Positions 1,756 to 29,689 of a DNA stretch of 64,000 bases are shown here, piece after piece (the stretch's first letter is position 1; every line of letters starts with the position of its first letter). The notes beneath the pieces were generated by a model that saw only the letters and a list, made by a program, of their open reading frames with translations, made no database searches and was not told where the DNA came from. The DNA comes from an uncultured Lachnospiraceae bacterium. GTDB lineage: Bacteria; Bacillota; Clostridia; Lachnospirales; Lachnospiraceae. Position numbers and translations under genes: made by a program. The stretch is taken from contig CANRWO010000009.1 in assembly GCA_947643615.1 (NCBI GenBank), positions 1 through 64,000 on the forward strand. Direction: 5' to 3'.

Positions 1756-3231
1756 ATGAAAAAGCTTTGTGAAGAAGCACGCGCGGAAATTTGCAGAATG
1801 CAGAAAGGCACGGTTGATCCAATGTCAGAAAGTAATTCAAAAAAATATGAGATAGATATGTGCAACGGCCCCCTTTTAGGGAAGATACTGATTTTTTATA
1901 TTCCGCTGATGCTCTCCGGTGTGCTGCAGCTTTTGTTTAATGCGGCGGATATTGCTGTGGTAGGACGCTTTGCCGGAAATGAGTCCTTGGCGGCGGTAGG
2001 TTCCACAGGGTCGCTGACGAACCTTATCGTCAATCTTTTTATGGGATTGTCAGTGGGGGCAAATGTGCTTGTGGCCAGGTTCTATGGCGCGGGACATAAA
2101 AAAGACTTGAAAGAGACGGTGCAGACTGCCGTGGCAACGGCGGTGATCGGCGGGATCATTTTGGTTTTCGTGGGATTTTTCGCAGCAAAACCTGCCCTTG
2201 CCCTGATGGCCACCCCGGAAAATGTAATTGACCATTCCGTGCTTTATATGCGGATTTATTTTGCCGGGATGCCGTTTATGATGGCGTATAATTTCGGAAG
2301 CGCCGTCCTGCGGGCAGTGGGTGATACCAGAAGGCCCCTTTACTATCTGATGATTGCGGGGGTAGTCAATGTGGTGCTGAACCTGATCTTCGTCATTCTT
2401 TTCAACATGGGAGTGGCAGGAGTGGCCACGGCAACAGTGATATCACAGGCCATTTCTGCAGTGCTTGTGGTTCGGTGCCTGATTCGGACGGATGGTGTCT
2501 ACAGGCTGGAATTAAAGGGACTCAAGATCAGGCCGGATAAGCTGCTCCGAATGATCCAGATCGGAGTCCCCGCAGGACTTCAGGGTTCCCTCTTTTCCAT
2601 TTCCAACGTACTGATCCAGTCCTCGGTGAACAGCTTCGGCTCTATTGCCATGGCAGGCAATACCGCAGGAAGCAATGTGGAAGGGTTTGTCTATACCTCC
2701 ATGAATGCCTTTCATCAGGCAGCGATCAGTTTTGCCGGCCAGAATTACGGTGCAATGAAATACAAGAGAGTGGGAAAAGTGCTGCTCATCTGCGAAGGCC
2801 TGGTGATATTTGTGGGACTGGCGATGGGGAATGCGGCTTATTTTTTTGCCGGCCACATATTAAAGATCTATTCCACAGACCCGGAGGTTATTTCATACGG
2901 AGTTCTGCGGATGAGTTATATTTGTGTGACGTACTTTATATGTGGTATGATGGACGTCATCGTGGGAGTCCTGAGAGGGATGGGGTGTTCCATCATGCCC
3001 ATGCTGGTGTCCCTGACCGGTGCCTGCCTGTTCAGGGTGGTCTGGATCTATACCATATTCCAGCAGGTGAGGACTCTGTCCTGCCTGTACCTTTCCTATC
3101 CCATAAGCTGGGTGTTGACCTTCTGCGTGCATCTGATTTGTTTTGCCGTTGTTTACCGGAAGCTGTTGCGCAGCAGGGACTTAAAAGAAGACGCGCCATT
3201 TTCTGCGGAAGAAATTCAGGAAAATGCTTGA
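1756..3231 (+). CDS. MATE family efflux transporter (start possibly 1822)
   Basis: ~490 aa, about 12 hydrophobic segments; NAADIAVVGRFAGNESLAAVGSTGSL is typical of MATE N-termini. Confidence 0.9.
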   Translation: MKKLCEEARAEICRMQKGTVDPMSESNSKKYEIDMCNGPLLGKILIFYIPLMLSGVLQLLFNAADIAVVGRFAGNESLAAVGSTGSLTNLIVNLFMGLSVGANVLVARFYGAGHKKDLKETVQTAVATAVIGGIILVFVGFFAAKPALALMATPENVIDHSVLYMRIYFAGMPFMMAYNFGSAVLRAVGDTRRPLYYLMIAGVVNVVLNLIFVILFNMGVAGVATATVISQAISAVLVVRCLIRTDGVYRLELKGLKIRPDKLLRMIQIGVPAGLQGSLFSISNVLIQSSVNSFGSIAMAGNTAGSNVEGFVYTSMNAFHQAAISFAGQNYGAMKYKRVGKVLLICEGLVIFVGLAMGNAAYFFAGHILKIYSTDPEVISYGVLRMSYICVTYFICGMMDVIVGVLRGMGCSIMPMLVSLTGACLFRVVWIYTIFQQVRTLSCLYLSYPISWVLTFCVHLICFAVVYRKLLRSRDLKEDAPFSAEEIQENA

Positions 3232-3357
3232 AACATATGTTCGAGCGTGATATAATGCAACATAGTATTGAAAATGCGTAAAGAGCGGTATAGGATGGAA
3301 AGGCATTTTGAAAGAGGAAATTTTGAAAAAAAGAGCATTTTGAAAGAGGTGGGTATT

Positions 3358-3897
3358 ATGAAATATGCAATAGAATTATATTATGATGAAAAAACAGAAG
3401 AGGAACTTTATGGGTTGGCTCAGAAAATTGCCGATGCAAAGATCAGTTCAAAGTTCTTGGAATGGAAGACGAGGCCCCACCTTACCCTGGCCTGTTTCAA
3501 TGATGTGGATGAGGCTTCCTGCATCGAAAAGCTGAAAGAGTTTGCGGCGGACCATAGAAGGATGCCTGCCTATATCGGCTCCGTAGGAATGTTTAACGAC
3601 TCGAAGACCATCTTTGTCTCGCCTGTTATGAACAGCGTTATGTATCAATTCCAAAGAGAGCTGCACGAGAAGCTGAGAGACTTCGATACAAAGGGATGGG
3701 AGTGGTATCGTCCCGACCGCTGGGTGCCGCACTGTACCATAGCGCTTACCGGGGAGGACGAACAGGAAGCTTTTTTCCGGGCAAGTAATTTGGTGCTGCA
3801 TGAATTTAAAAAGACCAGCGGAGAATTTACAGCCATAGGATTGACTAAGATCACATTTCCGGTAGAAGAAATTTTTGTGGCGGAGATGAGCCGATAG
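3358..3897 (+). CDS. 2'-5' RNA ligase family protein
   Basis: Two HxT/S-type motifs (RPHLTLACF, VPHCTIAL) typical of the 2H phosphoesterase/LigT fold; RBS gaggtgggt before ATG 3358. Confidence 0.75.
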   Translation: MKYAIELYYDEKTEEELYGLAQKIADAKISSKFLEWKTRPHLTLACFNDVDEASCIEKLKEFAADHRRMPAYIGSVGMFNDSKTIFVSPVMNSVMYQFQRELHEKLRDFDTKGWEWYRPDRWVPHCTIALTGEDEQEAFFRASNLVLHEFKKTSGEFTAIGLTKITFPVEEIFVAEMSR

Positions 3898-19957: not shown

Positions 19958-20827
19958 ATGAGTAGTGTTGCAATCGTAACAGACAGTAACAGCGGCATCA
20001 CACAGGCCAAGGCCAAAGAGCATGGGATCTATGTCCTGCCTATGCCGTTTATGATCAATGACGAGACTTTTTATGAGGATATTGACCTGACCCAGGAGCA
20101 ATTTTATGAGAAGCTGACAGGTGGCGCCCAGATCGGTACCAGCCAGCCTTCCCCGGAGTCCGTGATGGAATTGTGGGATAAGCTGCTGAAGGAATATGAC
20201 GAGATCGTGCATATCCCCATGAGCAGCGGACTGTCCGGTTCCTGCCAGTCCGCCATGATGCTTGCCCAGGATTATGAGGATAAGGTCCAGGTAGTCAATA
20301 ACCAGAGGATATCCGTCACCCAGCGCCAGTCCTGCCTGGACGCAAAGCTGCTTGCGGCAAAGGGGATGAATGCCAGAGAGATCAAAGATTTCCTGGAGGA
20401 AGACAAGTTCAACAGCAGTATCTATATTATGCTGGATACTTTATATTATCTGAAAAAGGGCGGCAGGATCACACCTGCGGCAGCGGCTATCGGCACTATG
20501 CTGAAGCTGAAGCCGGTGCTCCAGATCCAGGGGGATAAGCTGGACGCCTTTGCGAAAGCGCGCACCGTCAACCAGGGTAAGGCCACCATGATCAACGCCA
20601 TCCGCAACGATATCGAGAAACGGTTCGGCGGCCTTACCGAGGATAAGCATATCTGGCTGCAGATTGCCCATACCCACAATGAAGCGGCAGCGGAAGCTTA
20701 TAAGCAGGAGATTGCGGAACAGTTTCCCGGCTATGATATCCATATGGATCCCCTTTCTCTCAGTGTGGCCTGCCATATCGGCCCCGGCGCCCTGGCATTT
20801 GCCTGCTGCAGGAAGATTGAGGTTTGA
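19958..20827 (+). CDS. DegV family (fatty-acid-binding) protein
   Basis: VAIVTDSNSGITQAKAKEHGIYVLPMPFMINDETF, IPMSSGLSGSCQSA, HIGPGALAFAC. Confidence 0.95.
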   Translation: MSSVAIVTDSNSGITQAKAKEHGIYVLPMPFMINDETFYEDIDLTQEQFYEKLTGGAQIGTSQPSPESVMELWDKLLKEYDEIVHIPMSSGLSGSCQSAMMLAQDYEDKVQVVNNQRISVTQRQSCLDAKLLAAKGMNAREIKDFLEEDKFNSSIYIMLDTLYYLKKGGRITPAAAAIGTMLKLKPVLQIQGDKLDAFAKARTVNQGKATMINAIRNDIEKRFGGLTEDKHIWLQIAHTHNEAAAEAYKQEIAEQFPGYDIHMDPLSLSVACHIGPGALAFACCRKIEV

Positions 20828-20853
20828 GGCAGTTAAATAGTATTTGTTTCTGG

Positions 20854-20885
20854 CCGGAGGCTGTATCCACAGCTTCCGGTTTTTT
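20854..20885 (+). terminator. Rho-independent terminator after degV
   Basis: ccggaggctgt-atcc-acagcttccggttttttata. Confidence 0.9.
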
Positions 20886-20953
20886 ATATTTTAATGACTC
20901 ACATCGCCCCTTTCACCTCCGGCTCCCTGTTTCAGAAAAGTGTGAGTTTGTCC

Positions 20954-20984
20954 TTGACCGTCACCTTAGGTAACCCTTTATAAT
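20954..20984 (+). promoter_or_regulatory. MerR-type promoter (TTGACC-N19-TATAAT) with imperfect dyad in spacer
   Basis: 19-nt spacer containing gtcaccttaggtaac (20960-20974; 12/15 symmetric), upstream of a MerR gene. Confidence 0.75.
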
Positions 20985-21101
20985 GTGAATTGACAGAAAA
21001 CAAGATAAGAACCTTAGGGTTTTTGACGGAATTTTGAAAGGCATATGCTTTTGGGTTCTGTGGCACAAGTAATATACAGGAAGAAAGAAGGAGGTATCTT
21101 C

Positions 21102-22319
21102 ATGGAAGGAAAATTATACACGGCAGGGGAGATTGCCAGGCTGACAGGGGTATCCCTGCGCACCATCCGTTTTTATGACGAAAAGGGATTGCTGAAGCCG
21201 GTGGCCCATTCGGAGGCGGGATACCGGTACTATGACCGGGATTGTGTGAACAGGCTTCAGCGGATCCTGATCCTGAAATATTTAGGCTTTTCCCTGCGCC
21301 AGATAGAAGGGATGGTGCAGGCAGAAGGGATAAACCATACAGAAGGAGACAATGTCAGAGACATGGAAATACAGCTTTCCGAACAGAAGGCCCTTCTGCT
21401 GCAGCGGAAAAACCGGTTGGAGGAGATGGTCTCCACCATTGAGGTTATGGAGAAAAGCGGCGGGGAGGAGAGGTGGAATTACCTTCTGAGGCTGCTGAAT
21501 CTTCTGACAGACGAAGATAAAATTAAACAACAATATGAGACCCCAGATAATCTGGAGAGGAGGATCCGGCTCCATGATTACAGCACCAATCCCCGGGATT
21601 GGATGGAATGGGTGTATGAAAGACTGGGACTGGATGCCGGGGACAGGGTTTTGGAGATTGGGTGCGGGAACGGAAAGCTGTGGTGCAGGAATATCCACAG
21701 GCTGCCGGAGAGACTGCATCTGATCCTCACCGACCGCTCAGAGGGGATGCTGGCACAGGCTCGGGAACGCCTTACCCCCTATGAGAAGCTGATGGAGCGG
21801 AAGGGGATCTGCGTGGAGTATCACGTTATGGACGCGGAGGAGCTGCATCTGCCGGAGAAATGCTATGACAAAATAATTGCCAACCATATGCTTTACCATG
21901 TGAAGCACAGGGAAGAATGCCTGGGTGCGATCCAAACGGCGCTGAAAGATACGGGAATCTTTTATTGCTCAACTATCGGCAACGGCCATATGAAGGAGCT
22001 GCATGAAATCGTGGCTTCTTTTGACAGGCGTATTGAAATGCCCTTTACCAGGCTGACCACAGGGTTCCGGCTGGAAAACGGGGAAGCGCAGCTGAAAAAG
22101 TTCTTCCCCAGAGTGGAATGTGAGCGGCAGGAAAACGCCCTGATCGTGGATGACGCAGCGGTAATTTATGATTATGTGTATTCTTATCCCGGGAACGCTC
22201 CCTGTATCCTGGAGCAGAGAGGAGAGGAATTCCGGCAGCTGTTGGAAGATATGCTGAGACGGGAGGGAGCGGTCTATATCCAAAAGGAAACGGGGATGTT
22301 TATCTGCCGGAAAAGGTAA
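21102..22319 (+). CDS. MerR family regulator fused to class I SAM-dependent methyltransferase
   Basis: N-term KLYTAGEIARLTGVSLRTIRFYDEKGLLKP; C-term DRVLEIGCGNGKLW, LTDRSEGMLAQARERL, YDKIIANHMLYHV. Confidence 0.92.
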   Translation: MEGKLYTAGEIARLTGVSLRTIRFYDEKGLLKPVAHSEAGYRYYDRDCVNRLQRILILKYLGFSLRQIEGMVQAEGINHTEGDNVRDMEIQLSEQKALLLQRKNRLEEMVSTIEVMEKSGGEERWNYLLRLLNLLTDEDKIKQQYETPDNLERRIRLHDYSTNPRDWMEWVYERLGLDAGDRVLEIGCGNGKLWCRNIHRLPERLHLILTDRSEGMLAQARERLTPYEKLMERKGICVEYHVMDAEELHLPEKCYDKIIANHMLYHVKHREECLGAIQTALKDTGIFYCSTIGNGHMKELHEIVASFDRRIEMPFTRLTTGFRLENGEAQLKKFFPRVECERQENALIVDDAAVIYDYVYSYPGNAPCILEQRGEEFRQLLEDMLRREGAVYIQKETGMFICRKR

Positions 22320-22434
22320 AAGCGGGCATCACAGGCAAAGTGGGAGCGGGCAGCACCAGGCAGCACCGGACAGGGACTTTGCCCTGAAGCCGGAAGGGTT
22401 TAATTTATTTTACAGGAAACTGCGTCTGGCTGGG

Positions 22435-22476
22435 GAAGAATGCTTCGCATTCTTCGAAGCGCCGCAAGCGGCGCTT
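22435..22476. repeat. Twin perfect hairpins (palindromic element)
   Basis: gaagaatgc-ttc-gcattcttc and aagcgccg-caag-cggcgctt in tandem. Confidence 0.85.
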
Positions 22477-22498
22477 TAGTACAGGAGGGGAACTACAG

Positions 22499-23332
22499 AT
22501 GATTGATATGGATGATATGTCCTGCAAAACCGTAATCCAGGAACAGTATAAAAATACAGATAACCTTAAGGTGAGAAAAAGCTTACACGAAAAATACAGT
22601 GTGAATAAAGTGGGATTCCAGAGGTGGATGTTTGACCAGTATCCCTTTCGCAGAAAGATGAAAATCCTGGAATTGGGAAGCGGAACAGGAGAATTGTGGA
22701 ATTATTATTTTGAAAATGACGTTCTCCGGAGTTATAATATGGATATTATATTATCGGATTTTTCCGACGGAATGACAGATTACTTACAGCATCTTTTCCA
22801 GGGCAGGGGAATATCCGTCAGAAAGGCTGACATACAACATATACCCTTTGGCAACGGTACCTTTGACCTTATTATAGCAAATTCCATGCTATATCATGTG
22901 AAGGATATTGACCTGGCGATTTCCGAAGTAAGACGGGTTTTGAAAAAAGACGGCCTGTTCTGCTGCTCCACGTTCGGGATAAACGGAATGACGCAGTATC
23001 TTTATCATGCACTGGATGAACTTGGCATTCCCTGCGACCATAAATCCAATATTTCCTTTACATTACAGAACGGGGCACGGACGCTCAGAAAGCAGTTCGC
23101 AAAGGTGGATCGGCGTGATTACACGGACGCTTTAGAGATAGACAACGTGGAGGATTATCTGGAGTATATCTATTCCATGGCTTCCATGCAGGGGCTTGAC
23201 CGGGGAAAATACGGCGTTTTGCTGGATTACTTCAATTCACGGAAGGTAAACGGATACCTGCACATACCCAAAGAATACGGAATGTTTGTGGCAGGTGACG
23301 GCGGATTTGACGGATGCCGGCGGGTACGCTGA
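22499..23332 (+). CDS. Class I SAM-dependent methyltransferase, homologous to the MerR-fused domain
   Basis: MKILELGSGTGELW, LSDFSDGMTDYL, FDLIIANSMLYHVKDI; alignable along its length with 21102-22319 C-terminus; RBS aggagggg. Confidence 0.9.
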   Translation: MIDMDDMSCKTVIQEQYKNTDNLKVRKSLHEKYSVNKVGFQRWMFDQYPFRRKMKILELGSGTGELWNYYFENDVLRSYNMDIILSDFSDGMTDYLQHLFQGRGISVRKADIQHIPFGNGTFDLIIANSMLYHVKDIDLAISEVRRVLKKDGLFCCSTFGINGMTQYLYHALDELGIPCDHKSNISFTLQNGARTLRKQFAKVDRRDYTDALEIDNVEDYLEYIYSMASMQGLDRGKYGVLLDYFNSRKVNGYLHIPKEYGMFVAGDGGFDGCRRVR

Positions 23333-23369
23333 ACTTAGGTGCAAAATATAGTGTGGAAATGAGGATTTT

Positions 23370-24737
23370 ATGAACTTTTGGCAGGCAATGTCTGGAAATT
23401 TATGGAGTATGACAGTGGATGTAGGCTTCACCCTCTGGATGTCCCATATTCTTTTGGGAAGGATTCCCCGCCATGGAAGGATGCATGTGTTTAAATGTTT
23501 CATGGCTTCGGTTTTTGTGATCGTGTTATTTGCGTTTTTGGGATCTGCCTGTTATGTGGCAGGAGTATTTTACTGGAAATATCAGACAGGCACTTTGCTG
23601 TGGAAATATTTTTCGGTGTTATGTATGGCGCTTTTCCTTCGGTTTCTATACCGGGCGCCCATGAAAGACTGCTGTATCGACATCCTGACCGTGGAGATCC
23701 TGTATTCTTACGGCGATTACCTCTCGCAGCTGTACAGTGTGGGGATCATCTATAATCTCACGGTGCCGGAGGAGCGCCGGCGTTATCTGTTCTGGATCCT
23801 GGTGGTAGTACCGGCCTGCCTGGTTCTTTGCGGTTTTGTGATCCACATGTCCGGCATAGGCAGGATTTACAGACAGTGGATCGGGCAGGAAGATGTACAC
23901 AAAGGAATCCTGCTCCTGCTGTTCTCCTACCCGGCAATATACCGTATGCTGCAGATCATTGTAAACGGCAGGCAGCTGAACGGTTCCCTGCAGTTATTGC
24001 CGCTGGCGCTGCTTTTCATGATCCATGTGTTTCTGCTCTACGCAGGACGGAACTGGCAGCAAAAGCAGGAGATTACGGCGCAGCAGAACAGTCTGAAGCA
24101 GCAGACCATCTATATAGAACAGCTGGAGCAGATCCAGTCCGAACTGCGCAGGTTCCGGCATGATTTCAAAAACATGACGGCAGGAATGTATCTCCAGGCA
24201 AAGGAAGGCGATCCGGCGGCCGTGGAAGCTTTTATACAGAATATGACGGAAGACTTTGACAGGCAGGTGGGCAGCCATGTGCAGCTGGTCAACGAACTGG
24301 GCAATGTTCGCATGATGGAGGTAAAAGGCCTTCTCATGGATAAGATGATCCGGATGAAACGGGAGGGCATCCGTTTTGAACTGGAGGTAATGTTCCCTTT
24401 GGATACCACCCGGATGCGCAGTACCGATCTGTGCCGGTGCCTGGGGATCCTGCTGGATAATGCCGTGGAAGAGGCACAGGGGAAGAAGGATGGCTGGGTG
24501 CGCCTGATGATCAGCAGCCCGGGCGGTGACGTCACCGTCTTTCGGATCACGAACAGCCTGTATTCGGAGCCTGCGCTTCACCTTTTGGGAAAGGATGGCT
24601 ATACCACCAAAGGGGAAGGGCACGGGACAGGCCTGGAAAGCTATCGGAAAATATTGGACCGATATGACTTTATATTTAACCTGACCGCCGTAAGGGACGG
24701 CTGTTTTGTGCAGGAGTTTACGATTCATGAAAGATGA
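23370..24737 (+). CDS. GHKL domain (AgrC-like) sensor histidine kinase
   Basis: Multiple N-terminal TMs; LRRFRHDFKNMTAGM H-box; LGILLDNAVEEA N-box; GHGTGLESYRKIL G-box. Confidence 0.88.
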   Translation: MNFWQAMSGNLWSMTVDVGFTLWMSHILLGRIPRHGRMHVFKCFMASVFVIVLFAFLGSACYVAGVFYWKYQTGTLLWKYFSVLCMALFLRFLYRAPMKDCCIDILTVEILYSYGDYLSQLYSVGIIYNLTVPEERRRYLFWILVVVPACLVLCGFVIHMSGIGRIYRQWIGQEDVHKGILLLLFSYPAIYRMLQIIVNGRQLNGSLQLLPLALLFMIHVFLLYAGRNWQQKQEITAQQNSLKQQTIYIEQLEQIQSELRRFRHDFKNMTAGMYLQAKEGDPAAVEAFIQNMTEDFDRQVGSHVQLVNELGNVRMMEVKGLLMDKMIRMKREGIRFELEVMFPLDTTRMRSTDLCRCLGILLDNAVEEAQGKKDGWVRLMISSPGGDVTVFRITNSLYSEPALHLLGKDGYTTKGEGHGTGLESYRKILDRYDFIFNLTAVRDGCFVQEFTIHER

Positions 24738-25501
24738 CAGGAGGGGTTATGCTGCCGGTTTATATATGTGAAGATGAAGAGCAGATCAGGAACATGGAGC
24801 GTGCCTGGCTGGAAAAGCAGATCCTGATTCAGGGTTATGACATGAAGGTAGTACTTTCTACCGGTAATCCGGAGGAGCTTTTGGAGTGCCTTGACCGAAA
24901 ATCCGGGCAGGGAATCTATTTTCTGGACGTGGAACTCAAAGGTGCTTCCATGAATGGATTTCAGCTGGGAAAGGAGATCCGAAAAAGGGATGGGGGAGGA
25001 TTTCTGATCTATGTCACGGCGTTTCCCGACCTGGCTTTCGAGACCTTCCGCTATCATCTGGAAGCCCTGGACTATATCTGCAAACAAAATCCGGAACGGA
25101 TGTATACAGACCTTTCCCGCTGCCTTGACACCGTTACGGAGCGGATGAGCAAAATGCAAAATCCCCGGCAGGAGTATTTTACCCTGAAAACGCCGGAAAT
25201 GATCCGGCATATTCCTTTGGGCGATATTCTGTATTTTGCCACTTCCAGCCGCACCCACCGCATAGAGCTTCACGCAAAGAATGAACTGTTTGACTTCTCC
25301 GGAAGCATACAGGAGTTGGAAAAGGATCTGGGTGAGGGTTTTATACGGGTACACAGAGCCTATCTGGTCCATGGGGAACAGATTGACTGGATCGATGTGC
25401 ACAACAGGGAACTTGTATTGAAAAACGGGGAGCGCTGCCCCTTCTCCCGGCGCATGCGCCAGGAACTGCTTAAGCGTGGAGCCGTTTGGGCAGTGAAATG
25501 A
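24734..25501 (+). CDS. LytTR family response regulator
   Basis: VYICEDEEQIRNMER receiver, FLDVELKG phospho-acceptor region, C-terminal LytTR (DILYFATSSRTHRIELHAKN...GFIRVHRAYLVH); ATGA overlap with kinase. Confidence 0.92.
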   Translation: MTGGVMLPVYICEDEEQIRNMERAWLEKQILIQGYDMKVVLSTGNPEELLECLDRKSGQGIYFLDVELKGASMNGFQLGKEIRKRDGGGFLIYVTAFPDLAFETFRYHLEALDYICKQNPERMYTDLSRCLDTVTERMSKMQNPRQEYFTLKTPEMIRHIPLGDILYFATSSRTHRIELHAKNELFDFSGSIQELEKDLGEGFIRVHRAYLVHGEQIDWIDVHNRELVLKNGERCPFSRRMRQELLKRGAVWAVK

Positions 25502-25509
25502 CCGTTTGG
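25481..25509 (+). promoter_or_regulatory. LytTR-type direct repeats
   Basis: GCCGTTTGG-N11-ACCGTTTGG directly upstream of a promoter with TATAAT at 25542-25547 and no good -35. Confidence 0.5.
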
Positions 25510-25569
25510 GCATTTGGAACCTTTCCCAAAACGTACCGTGGTATAATCCTTCGCAAAGGACGGTTTTGC

Positions 25570-25749
25570 ATGATATCAGTGGGGACGATCCCATTCCTTT
25601 CCTGTAAGTCCCACAGGGGAAAGACAGACAGCACTGTGCCGGATTTAAAGAAATGCGGCTGGCGGCGCCTGAGAGGAAACTTTTGGAAATGGAAACCCGG
25701 GCAGGCCAGACATGGGGCTGAAAAGGGCGGATCGTACCGGACTTTATGA
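25570..25749 (+). CDS. Possible small ORF (59 aa)
   Basis: MISVGTIPFLSCKSHRGKTDSTVPDLKKCGWRRLRGNFWKWKPGQARHGAEKGGSYRTL; AAAGGA 9 nt upstream of ATG; downstream of 25542 -10. Confidence 0.3.
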   Translation: MISVGTIPFLSCKSHRGKTDSTVPDLKKCGWRRLRGNFWKWKPGQARHGAEKGGSYRTL

Positions 25750-25794
25750 AGGGCATGGCCGGACAGATGCATAAAGGAAAGGTATGGTATTAAA

Positions 25795-26844
25795 ATGACA
25801 GAGACAAAAGAAACCACCAAAAAACAGCTTATTATTTTTCTGCTTGTGGCGTATGGGTTTACTTATGTGATGGGTTTTCTCGCCTGGTACGGAAACTCGG
25901 TCCAGGCAGATCTGAGCGCATTTCCCAGTGCCCAGATGTTTTATCCGGCGGCAGGCGTCATGCTGGCATACCTGCTGACCAGACGGCAGGATGACTTGCT
26001 GCCCAAATGGTTTTACCGGTGTTTTATAGGGGTGACTTTTTGCATGGCCCTTCTTTCAGTCCTGTCCGTAGCCGCACCGGAACAGACCGTGATTCTTTAT
26101 GAAACCCCCGTTTCCCTCTGGGCGGTCCTTACACAATACGTTACCATAATCGGGAGCATACTCTGCCTTATCCCGCTGCTGTTATCAGGTAAGAAAAGAA
26201 GAGGGGCCTATGGCCTCGGCTGGAAAAACTGGAAAACCTCCTGGTTTTGTATTCTGGTTTTTCTCATACTTTATTTCGGGCGCGTCTTTGTCGCCTATGC
26301 CATGGAAGGGCAGCCGGGCATAATGCTGGAAATCTTTAAAAACCCTGCCACATGGGGTTATCTGCTCTTTGTGCCGGTGAATTTCTTTCTGGCATATGCG
26401 GCATTTCTGGGGGAGGAATACGGATGGCGCTATTACCTGCAGCCTCTGCTCCAGAAACGGTTTGGCATGCGGCGCGGCGTTCTGCTTCTGGGCGTGATTT
26501 GGGGACTCTGGCACATTTTTCTGGACTTTTTTTATTACACCACGCCGGATCAGGGACTGATCATGACCGTATCCCAGATCATTACCTGCCTGGGACTGGG
26601 GATTTTCTTTGCCTGGGCATATTTAAAGACCGGCAATATATGGGTCGTGGTGATCATGCATTATTTAAATAATAACCTTACCCTTGTGACAGCTAACAAT
26701 TACTCTGCGGATATTCTGACAAACCAGCAGCTTTCCTGGTCCATGATCCCTTCCGCGCTTCTGCTGAACGGGGTAGTATTCGGGATTTTTCTGCTTTCCA
26801 GGGAATTTCGGAATGACAAACCCAAAGCCCCCGATGCATTTTAA
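25795..26844 (+). CDS. CPBP family intramembrane glutamic endopeptidase
   Basis: Multi-TM; EEYGWRYYLQPLLQ, GVIWGLWHIFLDFFYY and VVIMHYLNNN motifs. Confidence 0.9.
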   Translation: MTETKETTKKQLIIFLLVAYGFTYVMGFLAWYGNSVQADLSAFPSAQMFYPAAGVMLAYLLTRRQDDLLPKWFYRCFIGVTFCMALLSVLSVAAPEQTVILYETPVSLWAVLTQYVTIIGSILCLIPLLLSGKKRRGAYGLGWKNWKTSWFCILVFLILYFGRVFVAYAMEGQPGIMLEIFKNPATWGYLLFVPVNFFLAYAAFLGEEYGWRYYLQPLLQKRFGMRRGVLLLGVIWGLWHIFLDFFYYTTPDQGLIMTVSQIITCLGLGIFFAWAYLKTGNIWVVVIMHYLNNNLTLVTANNYSADILTNQQLSWSMIPSALLLNGVVFGIFLLSREFRNDKPKAPDAF

Positions 26845-26856
26845 TAATTTTACGTA

Positions 26857-26884
26857 TTGACATTTACAGGTTATTGGTTATAAT
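26857..26884 (+). promoter_or_regulatory. Consensus SigA promoter
   Basis: TTGACA-N16-TATAAT. Confidence 0.6.
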
Positions 26885-26907
26885 GATATCAAATTACATT
26901 TTTATTT

Positions 26908-27171
26908 GTGCTACGGGACTTTCTGATGGAACACCGATCGGAGGTGGTAAAGGCAATGGTATTGGATTATACTTTTGAGAGGCAATTAATGCTGGAGAGA
27001 GAAGAGGGCAGAGAAGAAGGTAGGGAAGAGGGCATGGAGCAAGGCTTGAAAGCGCTTATTTCCACTTGTAAGGAGCTGCAAGTATCTTATGACGCCACCT
27101 CTGATAAAGTGAGGGAGAAATTTTCACTGTCGGACGGGGAAGTGGAAAAAAATATGCGGCTTTACTGGTGA
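26908..27171 (+). pseudogene. Truncated C-terminus of Rpn family recombination-promoting nuclease/putative transposase
   Basis: LRDFLMEHRSEVVKAMVLDYTFERQLMLEREEGREEGREEGMEQGLKALISTCKELQVS; resembles the Rpn C-terminal tail, with no nuclease domain upstream. Confidence 0.6.
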
Positions 27172-27212
27172 CAGCCGGTTCCGTTCGGTGGATTTTGAAA
27201 TGAGTTAGAAGT

Positions 27213-27258
27213 AAAAAGGTATGTGCACTTGTTCTTTGGGCAGGCACATGCCTTTTTC
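27213..27258. terminator. Terminator hairpin
   Basis: aaaaaggtatgtgc ... gcacatgcctttttc. Confidence 0.7.
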
Positions 27259-27316
27259 GTCATTGACTGCAGGAACGGTTTTTTCAAACACACTCTGGAT
27301 GTTTCATAATTTCCGT

Positions 27317-27345
27317 TTGCATTGTGTCACAATGTTATGTATAAT
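27317..27345 (+). promoter_or_regulatory. Promoter with operator-like palindrome ahead of GNAT gene
   Basis: TTGCAT-N17-TATAAT with ATTGTG-T-CACAAT at 27321-27333. Confidence 0.5.
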
Positions 27346-27456
27346 TCTATAAAAGTCAGGCACGGGGAAAAGCCTCCGATACGGACTGGAAAAATCTTGC
27401 AAAGCAGTGCTGAAATGAAGGAAAAAATGGAACAATTGAACACAACAGGAAGATCT

Positions 27457-28044
27457 ATGAATACACCACAGCTGGAAACAGAAAGGCTGATACTCAGAAG
27501 ATTCAGGGAAAATGATATTGACGCCCTGTATCTGATACTGAAGGATGAGGCAGTCAATACTTTTTTGCCGTGGTTCCCTTTAAAAAGTATAGAGGAAACA
27601 AGAGCTTTTTTCGATACGAGATATGCGGCGGAATATGCGAAACCTCAGGCTTATGCCTACGCCATCTGCCAGAAAAAGGTCAACAGTCCCATTGGCTACA
27701 TAAAGGTTTCCATGGACGAGGGTTATGACCTGGGATATGGCCTGCGGAAAGAATTCTGGCATCAGGGGATTGTCACGGAAGCCGGGAAAGCTGTTATAGA
27801 ACAGGTCAGGAGAGACGGGATTCCTTTTATTACGGCAACCCATGACATCAACAATCCACGCAGCGGCGGCGTTATGATACAGTTGGGTATGAAATACCGG
27901 TATTCTTATGTAGAGCAGTGGCAGCCGAAAGATTTCCCGGTCACATTCAGAATGTATCAGATGAATTTCTGCCAAAAAGACGACGGTGTTTTTACAAAGT
28001 ATTGGGATAATTCTGCGGTACACTTTGTAGAAACGGATATATAG
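27457..28044 (+). CDS. GNAT family N-acetyltransferase (RimJ/RimL-like)
   Basis: LETERLILRRFRENDIDALY, PIGYIKVS, GYGLRKEFWHQGIVTEAGKAV. Confidence 0.9.
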   Translation: MNTPQLETERLILRRFRENDIDALYLILKDEAVNTFLPWFPLKSIEETRAFFDTRYAAEYAKPQAYAYAICQKKVNSPIGYIKVSMDEGYDLGYGLRKEFWHQGIVTEAGKAVIEQVRRDGIPFITATHDINNPRSGGVMIQLGMKYRYSYVEQWQPKDFPVTFRMYQMNFCQKDDGVFTKYWDNSAVHFVETDI

Positions 28045-28178
28045 TTTCGAAATCCCGAGACTGTAGTGCGCCAAAATGGGCTGTTTTTGCCTGTTTTGTG
28101 TGCATTTGTTAAACTCCCGGACTTTGATGTATGGTGATACAGCTGATTGTATGGGAGTTTGGAAAGGCGGCTGTAGCA

Positions 28179-28925
28179 ATGAAAGCAATTATTACAGATT
28201 TAGACAGAACCCTGCTCCATACAGATAAAACAATTTCGGAGGATACGTATTCCGTGCTGAAGCGTTGCCGTGACAGGGGAATTCTCCTAATGGCGGCAAC
28301 TGCACGTCCCCAGAGGGCCATATTAACATATCATGGCCAAATCGGATTTGACGCCATAACCACTTTAAACGGTGCAAGGATTATTTTGCCGCAGGGAGTC
28401 ATTGAAAACGGGATTGTTCCTTCCAGTGCGGAAAGCATTTTGCAAAAGGTCTTCGGGATCCCTGACATTGTCCTGTCATTGGAAACGGCAGAGGGCCTTT
28501 TTTCAAATATTCCAATCCCGGAATGGAATTCCACTGTTTTCAGAGGCTTTCCTGCCCTGCCCACAGAAAGGGCAGTCTATAAAATTCTGGTGAGCGGCGG
28601 AGGAGAAAATCTGCAGGAGCAGATAAGGCAAAGCCTGACAGATGATACTTATATGACGGTAGCGGAAGGGACATTGATGCAGATAATGAGTACTGCGTCC
28701 ACCAAATGGAATGGTATCAGGGCCATGCTGGAGGCGGAAGGTATCGCCAGGGATGAGGCGGTATATTTCGGGGATGACAATGACGATATAGAACCCATAA
28801 AAAACTGCGGGGTGGGTGTGGCTGTCTCCAATGCCATTGATAAGGTGCTGGAAGCGGCGGATTATGTAACGGAAAGCAATGATATGGACGGAGTGGCACG
28901 TTATATTGAGAAATACATATTGTGA
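28179..28925 (+). CDS. Cof-type HAD-IIB family hydrolase
   Basis: MKAIITDLDRTLLHTDKTIS; VYFGDDNDDIEPIKNCGVGVAVSNA. Confidence 0.93.
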   Translation: MKAIITDLDRTLLHTDKTISEDTYSVLKRCRDRGILLMAATARPQRAILTYHGQIGFDAITTLNGARIILPQGVIENGIVPSSAESILQKVFGIPDIVLSLETAEGLFSNIPIPEWNSTVFRGFPALPTERAVYKILVSGGGENLQEQIRQSLTDDTYMTVAEGTLMQIMSTASTKWNGIRAMLEAEGIARDEAVYFGDDNDDIEPIKNCGVGVAVSNAIDKVLEAADYVTESNDMDGVARYIEKYIL

Positions 28926-29004
28926 TCCCCCTTGTGCTTTTCTGAAAAGAGAGCATAATAATATGTCTGGAAGCAGGCTGACAAAAGAAAAAGGAACAGA
29001 TACC

Positions 29005-29586
29005 ATGGACAAATTTGCAGTAATTGATACCGAGACAAACTGGAATGATGCGGTAATGTCGATCGGTGTGGTAGTTGCCGATTCGGAGACAATGGAAAAA
29101 GAGGATTCGGCATATTTCATAATTGACCCGGAATACAGGGTGGGAGGGATGTATTCACATGAACTGCGCCCTGATGAGGATGGAGTCCGTGTTACAGGCA
29201 GGAAGCAGGCATTAAAGGAGATCAGAAACTGGCTGGACACATATAACGTGGGGAAACTTTTCGCGTATAACGCTTCTTTTGACAGAAATCACCTGCCGGA
29301 GTATCTGGGATATGAATGGTATGATATTATGCGCCTGGCCGCTTACCGCCAGTACAATTTTGCCATACCGGATTCTGCGGAATGCTATAAAACCGGCAGG
29401 ATGAAGTGGGGATATGGTGTGGAGGATGTGCTGAGAATGCTCACTGCAGACAAAAGTTACCGGGAGACCCACAATGCGATCCTGGATGCACTGGATGAGC
29501 TTGAAATCATGAGATTGCTGGGACATAAGATAAGCGAATATGGGATTGCCCTGGTTTCGGATAAGGGCAGTAGCAGGATGAGATAA
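29005..29586 (+). CDS. DnaQ-like 3'-5' exonuclease
   Basis: FAVIDTETNWNDAVMSIGVV (DxE), AYNASFDRNHL, HNAILDALDELEIM. Confidence 0.82.
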   Translation: MDKFAVIDTETNWNDAVMSIGVVVADSETMEKEDSAYFIIDPEYRVGGMYSHELRPDEDGVRVTGRKQALKEIRNWLDTYNVGKLFAYNASFDRNHLPEYLGYEWYDIMRLAAYRQYNFAIPDSAECYKTGRMKWGYGVEDVLRMLTADKSYRETHNAILDALDELEIMRLLGHKISEYGIALVSDKGSSRMR

Positions 29587-29689
29587 CAATACTTATCGAA
29601 CATACTTTTGGTTTTCCATTTACAAAACATAATATATATGGTAAAATATGGCCTGTGTCAAGAAGAAAACAATAAGGAGAGTTTTTCCG

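Follow-up and report, generated by a model that had tools for sequence, protein, structure and literature searches.

Gene content of the degV–gyrB interval

We analyzed a 64,000-nucleotide stretch of an uncultured Lachnospiraceae genome (contig CANRWO010000009.1, positions 1 to 64,000; the whole stretch is called the window below), in which the interval between degV and gyrB carries a putative two-component circuit made of a GHKL sensor kinase, a LytTR response regulator and a CPBP-family intramembrane protease. Besides these three genes, the interval between the end of degV (20827) and the start of gyrB (29648) contains a gene for a MerR DNA-binding domain fused to a methyltransferase (MerR-MT), a stand-alone methyltransferase gene (MT), a remnant of an Rpn-family gene, a GNAT gene, a HAD gene and one open reading frame (ORF) without a Pfam match (Table 1). 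In five of seven genomes of the same genus, degV and gyrB are directly adjacent, with gaps of less than 400 bp, while the interval measures about 2 kb in G154 and about 4 kb in G184; since degV sits beside gyrB in most of these genomes, we take this to be an insertion site, with about 8.8 kb of extra DNA in the window.

An earlier note, made from the sequence of this stretch, had described positions 20954–27171 as a candidate accessory signalling island flanked by housekeeping genes. The direct contact between degV and gyrB in these relatives bears out that the DNA is accessory, and Pfam and NCBIfam agree with the calls for MerR-MT, MT, GHKL kinase, LytTR regulator, CPBP protease and Rpn remnant, though not with the inclusion of a small ORF (discussed below). 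The flanking housekeeping genes are also there in principle, but the accessory stretch continues beyond 27171, through the GNAT and HAD genes and the ORF without a Pfam match, up to gyrB.

Table 1. Features of the degV–gyrB interval, with positions in the window
Feature	Position	Strand	Evidence
Accessory stretch between degV and gyrB	20825–29647		degV directly adjoins gyrB (gaps <400 bp) in G170, G177, G159, G175 and G155
MerR-type promoter of unit 1, TTGACC-19 bp (GTCACCTTAGGTAACCCTT)-TATAAT	20954–20984	+	Sequence; 19-bp spacer and dyad shared with homologues
MerR DNA-binding domain fused to class I methyltransferase (MerR-MT, unit 1)	21102–22319	+	Pfam MerR_1 6e-20, Methyltransf_31 3e-16
Stand-alone methyltransferase (MT, unit 1), paralogue of the sensor half of MerR-MT	22499–23332	+	Pfam Methyltransf_11 1.5e-18; 31% identity; in tandem with MerR-MT in G150 and G163
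GHKL (AgrC-like) sensor kinase (unit 2)	23370–24737	+	Pfam HATPase_c_5; PDB match to the AgrC kinase module, E 8e-39
LytTR (AgrA-like) response regulator (unit 2)	24749–25501	+	Pfam LytTR 1e-18, Response_reg; all-CPBP clade in tree
Predicted LytTR regulator operator, a direct repeat of CCGTTTGGGCA with period 20	25482–25512	+	Pattern comparison across loci
Predicted -10 box TATAAT, 29 nt past the operator	25542–25547	+	Conserved 29-nt spacing
CPBP protease (intramembrane glutamic, Rce1-like; unit 2), predicted to be controlled by the regulator	25795–26844	+	Pfam Rce1-like 1e-18; catalytic residues invariant in 13 homologues
Rpn C-terminal remnant, outside both units	26926–27171	+	Matches only positions 212–272 of 273 of TIGR01784

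The kinase, regulator and CPBP genes recur as a three-gene set

Using an alignment of the regulator, we searched 84,980 species genomes and found 123 relatives, of which the best 80 were kept for all the 80-locus counts given here; these loci belong mostly to Lachnospiraceae or unclassified Clostridia, and many come from metagenome assemblies. A CPBP gene lies beside the regulator at 30 of the 80 loci and an ABC exporter at 41, with 27 loci carrying CPBP only, three both outputs, 38 ABC only and 12 neither. The CPBP gene always has the orientation of the regulator gene (30 of 30), coming after it in 17 cases and before it in 13. The association of GHKL/LytTR pairs with CPBP proteins, which the earlier note had pointed out, is thus genuinely conserved, and the idea that CPBP is a chance neighbor, which came from the same-genus sample only, was overturned by this wider family search.

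The window regulator falls inside an all-CPBP clade of 18 rows in a maximum-likelihood tree (support 100/97), and the CPBP-only label changes four times on the regulator tree versus 23 times in shuffles. Among the 18 loci of the window's kind, the recurring families are CPBP (18 loci), the kinase (15) and the regulator (13 by clustering, all 18 loci having been found via the regulator), and the next family reaches only five loci. Since only these three families recur, the module is a self-contained three-gene set. Its layout varies: G404 and G013 have the order of the window, G348 and G385 have the CPBP gene between kinase and regulator, as does the culturable commensal Sporofaciens musculi WCA-9-b2 (L254), and G461 has CPBP, regulator and ABC genes.

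The encoded proteins have the expected features of their families. A GHKL kinase and a LytTR response regulator are both present, as in LytTR two-component systems, and the regulator probably starts at 24749, where it has a Shine-Dalgarno site, rather than at 24734 as in the list of ORFs. The CPBP protein matches Pfam PF02517 and the MmRce1 structure, and its EExxxR motif and H/H/N residues, which include the catalytic histidines of such intramembrane proteases, are invariant across 13 aligned homologues; WxxxH stands in place of the usual FxxxH.

The contig has a second, distant pair of LytTR regulator and GHKL kinase genes, about 45 kb further downstream (L110, 5207–7397; G000:C9, about 69–71 kb).

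The methyltransferase genes form a separate unit

The earlier note had placed the two methyltransferases together with the kinase, regulator and CPBP protein, a grouping that would fail if the genes occurred independently in relatives. Independent occurrence is what we found, as the MerR-MT and kinase sets co-occur in none of the genomes examined other than the window genome. In a same-genus sample of 36 genomes, MerR-MT is present in ten others, none of which has the kinase, and the single other kinase-bearing genome is without MerR-MT. Neither MT nor MerR-MT was found beside the regulator at any of the 80 loci, the sole MerR-MT match there being a generic MerR DNA-binding stretch. The MerR-MT and MT genes (unit 1) adjoin degV in G150 (75% and 76% identity) and lie elsewhere in the genome in G163, and MerR-MT without MT is present in other members of the genus; the kinase, regulator and CPBP genes (unit 2) are found in other genera without unit 1. 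Two unrelated gene sets are therefore stacked at one degV–gyrB insertion site.

In all eight close homologues inspected (those of the window, G150, G163, G177, G169, G170, G159 and G115), the MerR-MT gene is preceded by a TTGAC-type -35 box and a -10 box, separated by 19 bp that hold a dyad. A 19-bp spacer is a mark of MerR-controlled promoters (PMC9909328), and MerR-MT combines a MerR helix-turn-helix with a dyad promoter whose spacer is in the 19–20 bp range of MerR family activators. Unit 1 is independent and has a MerR-type promoter of its own. It is predicted to regulate itself: the methyltransferase domain of MerR-MT would probably sense a ligand, whereupon autoactivation would induce both MerR-MT and the paralogous MT, which is 31% identical to the methyltransferase half of MerR-MT.

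A predicted direct-repeat operator with fixed spacing precedes the CPBP gene

Between the regulator and CPBP genes, the window contains the direct repeat CCGTTTGGGCA-gtgaaatga-CCGTTTGGGCA, followed after 29 nt by TATAAT. This repeat pair, with a period of 20 or 21, was found at 14 promoters preceding a CPBP gene or an ABC operon, in 13 genomes, and a hexamer matching TATAAT at no fewer than four positions lies exactly 29 nt past the repeat in 13 of these promoters and at 30 nt in the other; in G461, a better -10-like hexamer is found at 34 nt than at 29. Across the 80 loci, this pattern occurred 47 times, at 45 loci and before CPBP or ABC genes, compared with 0 occurrences of the reversed pattern and 0.05 in shuffled loci, and TAnnnT was found at a distance of 29 in 43 of the 47 matches but in at most seven at any other distance. 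In its strict form, the pattern has a single match in the whole window genome, exactly at the CPBP promoter, one in G013 (before CPBP) and two in G385 (before CPBP and before ABC).

LytTR regulators bind direct repeats that are 11–13 bp apart and commonly 10 bp upstream of the -35 box (PMC6193735), and the spacing of the window operator agrees with such published sites. The -35 position of the window CPBP promoter has no good hexamer, which would suit an activated promoter. The predicted site thus has the features of a LytTR two-component system, that is, a direct-repeat operator upstream of a target promoter, and the case for it, as read from sequence, lies in its conserved position and spacing. 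Comparison between genomes shows the gene set, the operator, the spacing and the single genomic site of what would be a dedicated target.

Proposed function of the kinase–regulator–CPBP circuit

CPBP proteases adjoin regulators in many bacteria, yet their inputs and roles have rarely been worked out. We consider it very probable that the MerR-MT/MT genes and the kinase/regulator/CPBP genes are two separate units and, jointly with this, that the regulator controls the CPBP gene. Once immunity against peptide antimicrobials is added, giving a self-contained LytTR two-component system whose one target, CPBP, has a protective role, the reading has in our judgment about an even chance of being right. 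According to this model, the AgrC-like kinase would sense a compound, probably peptidic, that is extracellular or membrane-active, and would phosphorylate the regulator, which would then bind the direct repeat and activate, rather than repress, the promoter from which the CPBP protease is transcribed. The protease would most likely protect the membrane, whether by cleaving the offending peptide or by conferring immunity of the bacteriocin type. In place of CPBP, or along with it, an ABC-2 exporter would be driven by this operator in sister systems, which suggests that the CPBP and ABC-2 outputs serve one purpose.

Several points weigh against this proposal. The MT and kinase genes are just 37 bp apart with no clear terminator, so that transcripts of unit 1 may run on into unit 2. 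The uniqueness of the operator in the genome is by itself weak evidence, because the reversed control pattern likewise has one match, at another place in the window genome, and about 35 of the 80 loci fail the operator pattern, some of them with diverged half-sites or truncated. The putative immunity role draws on analogy and on the exporter swap; no bacteriocin gene recurs in the 18 loci of the window's kind.

CPBP proteins are known to act in bacteriocin immunity, in signal-peptide processing (SilX, MroQ) and in kinase modulation (Abx1) (PMC9298176, PMC10482373), and the protease could accordingly belong to the signalling itself, by processing or exporting a peptide signal encoded elsewhere or by binding and tuning the kinase, in which case its control by the regulator would form a feedback loop. 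The SilCR signal depends on SilX, whose gene adjoins that of a LytTR regulator, while MroQ trims AgrD and Abx1 binds CovS (PMC9298176, PMC10482373), and the kinase core of unit 2 is AgrC-like; however, the module has neither AgrB/AgrD nor a recurring peptide gene, and kinase and regulator persist without CPBP in the 38 ABC-only loci, with the same operator. Since they do, signalling in general can do without CPBP, and the exchange of CPBP for an ABC-2 exporter makes a shared protective output likelier than a part for CPBP in signal generation, so that we regard this alternative as rather unlikely. An AgrB/AgrD quorum-sensing locus was ruled out: AgrB and AgrD are not found beside the kinase and regulator, no small gene recurs in the module, and the only AgrB of the genome is on another contig (G000:C1:119567). 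The peptide quorum sensing suggested in the earlier note is therefore not supported.

Its small ORF did not hold up as a component either. This 87-aa ORF (25486–25749) lies across the operator and promoter of the regulator and is not conserved, its 59-aa core (25570–25749) has no Pfam match and no tblastn match in related loci, and the leader before the CPBP gene is just 27–100 nt long in 10 of 12 relatives, which is too short to hold it. These same observations, together with the lack of any recurring small gene in the 18 loci, make it very improbable that the leader encodes a small cationic peptide (the 59-aa core) acting as a regulator-controlled bacteriocin or signal with CPBP as its immunity protein, even though this peptide would have a net charge of +10, begins just past the -10 box and has AAAGGA a few bases before its ATG. 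Hardly credible at all, finally, is a single integrated island in which the kinase would sense, and CPBP handle, a peptide or toxic small molecule modified by the methyltransferases: the genes are adjacent on one strand, with the short MT–kinase gap, but the two units have separate promoters, each of a conserved type, and co-occur in none of the other genomes examined, which led us to reject it.

Returning to the LytTR two-component system with a protective output, we put forward, more tentatively, that it represents a widespread stand-alone immunity circuit, as yet without a name, in gut Lachnospiraceae, in which an AgrC/AgrA-like pair would sense a foreign peptide antimicrobial and act through a fixed-geometry operator on an interchangeable CPBP protease or ABC-2 exporter.

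Comparison with known systems

The streptococcal Sil locus of S. anginosus (PMC9298176) resembles unit 2 in having a CPBP gene (silX) directly 3' of a LytTR response regulator gene, in the same orientation, but Sil also includes bacteriocin genes and a signal peptide with its exporter, and none of these recurs in unit 2; SilX works in signal maturation, not in immunity. Staphylococcal agr with MroQ (PMC10482373) shares the AgrC-type kinase core, the AgrA-like regulator and a CPBP protease in the pathway; unit 2 differs in having no AgrB/AgrD and in having its CPBP gene under the predicted operator of the regulator. LytTR systems with ABC transporters and VirR-type promoters (PMC6193735, PMC2838878) likewise have fixed-spacing direct repeats just before the -35 box, and a transporter output is found in the sister loci of unit 2. 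LytTR Regulatory Systems, however, use a membrane inhibitor and not a kinase, whereas systems of the unit 2 type have CPBP or an ABC-2 exporter as output under one operator type. The kinase–regulator–CPBP circuit is LytTR two-component control in a new variant, whose operator is fixed and whose output can be exchanged. Its predicted wiring is unusually readable, with one kinase, one regulator, one conserved operator and one target in dozens of Lachnospiraceae genomes and a natural swap between protease and exporter, and what bacterial CPBP proteases protect against could be directly tested through it.

MerR-MT and its relatives

The MerR multidrug regulators TipA, Mta and BmrR (PMC9909328) are the closest known counterparts of MerR-MT that we compared: among solved structures its MerR half is closest to MtaN, with TipA also matching, and a 19-bp-spacer dyad promoter lies upstream of its own gene. 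Its effector half differs in being a class I methyltransferase, and methyltransferases are not mentioned in the review of that family (PMC9909328). A search of the open-access literature for MerR domains fused to methyltransferases gave nothing relevant, which is weak evidence of novelty.

At the same degV site, G150 (L101, 950–5155) has, after MerR-MT and MT, a protein of 1401 aa that carries a TIR_2 domain at its N terminus, in place of the kinase, regulator and CPBP genes. The 180-bp gap between MerR-MT and MT in the window (22310–22498) contains short repeats and two hairpins that are absent from the short gaps of G150 and G163, and is possibly an inserted element. A different methyltransferase, recognized by Pfam, follows the MerR-MT gene in L008 (G125, 1699–2385), and a methyltransferase-like protein without a Pfam match does so in L073 (G154, 2669–3442), both with a MerR-type operator upstream; the layout of MerR-MT plus a second methyltransferase may thus have arisen more than once.

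More distant MerR-MT homologues across Lachnospiraceae (L010–L034, L074, L075) lie beside rmlA/rmlB, for dTDP-rhamnose synthesis, in 25 of 39 loci. About a dozen of the distant loci have a 19-bp-spacer operator, for example TTGAAGGTGACCTAAGGTCACCTTTTATAAT, between the MerR-MT gene and rmlA/rmlB, and because these operators face rmlA/rmlB, they hint at a tie between this branch and cell-surface sugar metabolism. If a surface-sugar pathway is controlled by a methyltransferase-sensing MerR regulator, it would merit a separate study.

Other observations at the locus

PADLOC defense profiles gave only partial mad2/mad1 matches, from generic methyltransferase and MerR helix-turn-helix regions, and no match for the kinase, regulator, CPBP protein or Rpn remnant; MADS or another catalogued anti-phage defense was discarded, as there was no full match to the defense-system profiles. 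Relatives of CPBP or MerR-MT were not found in viral contigs. The Rpn C-terminal remnant is preceded by a perfect promoter, TTGACA-16-TATAAT (promoter and remnant together at 26857–27171), and C-terminal pieces of Rpn, called RpnS, have been reported as antitoxins of full-length Rpn (PMC10327210); on these two grounds, the remnant may be expressed.

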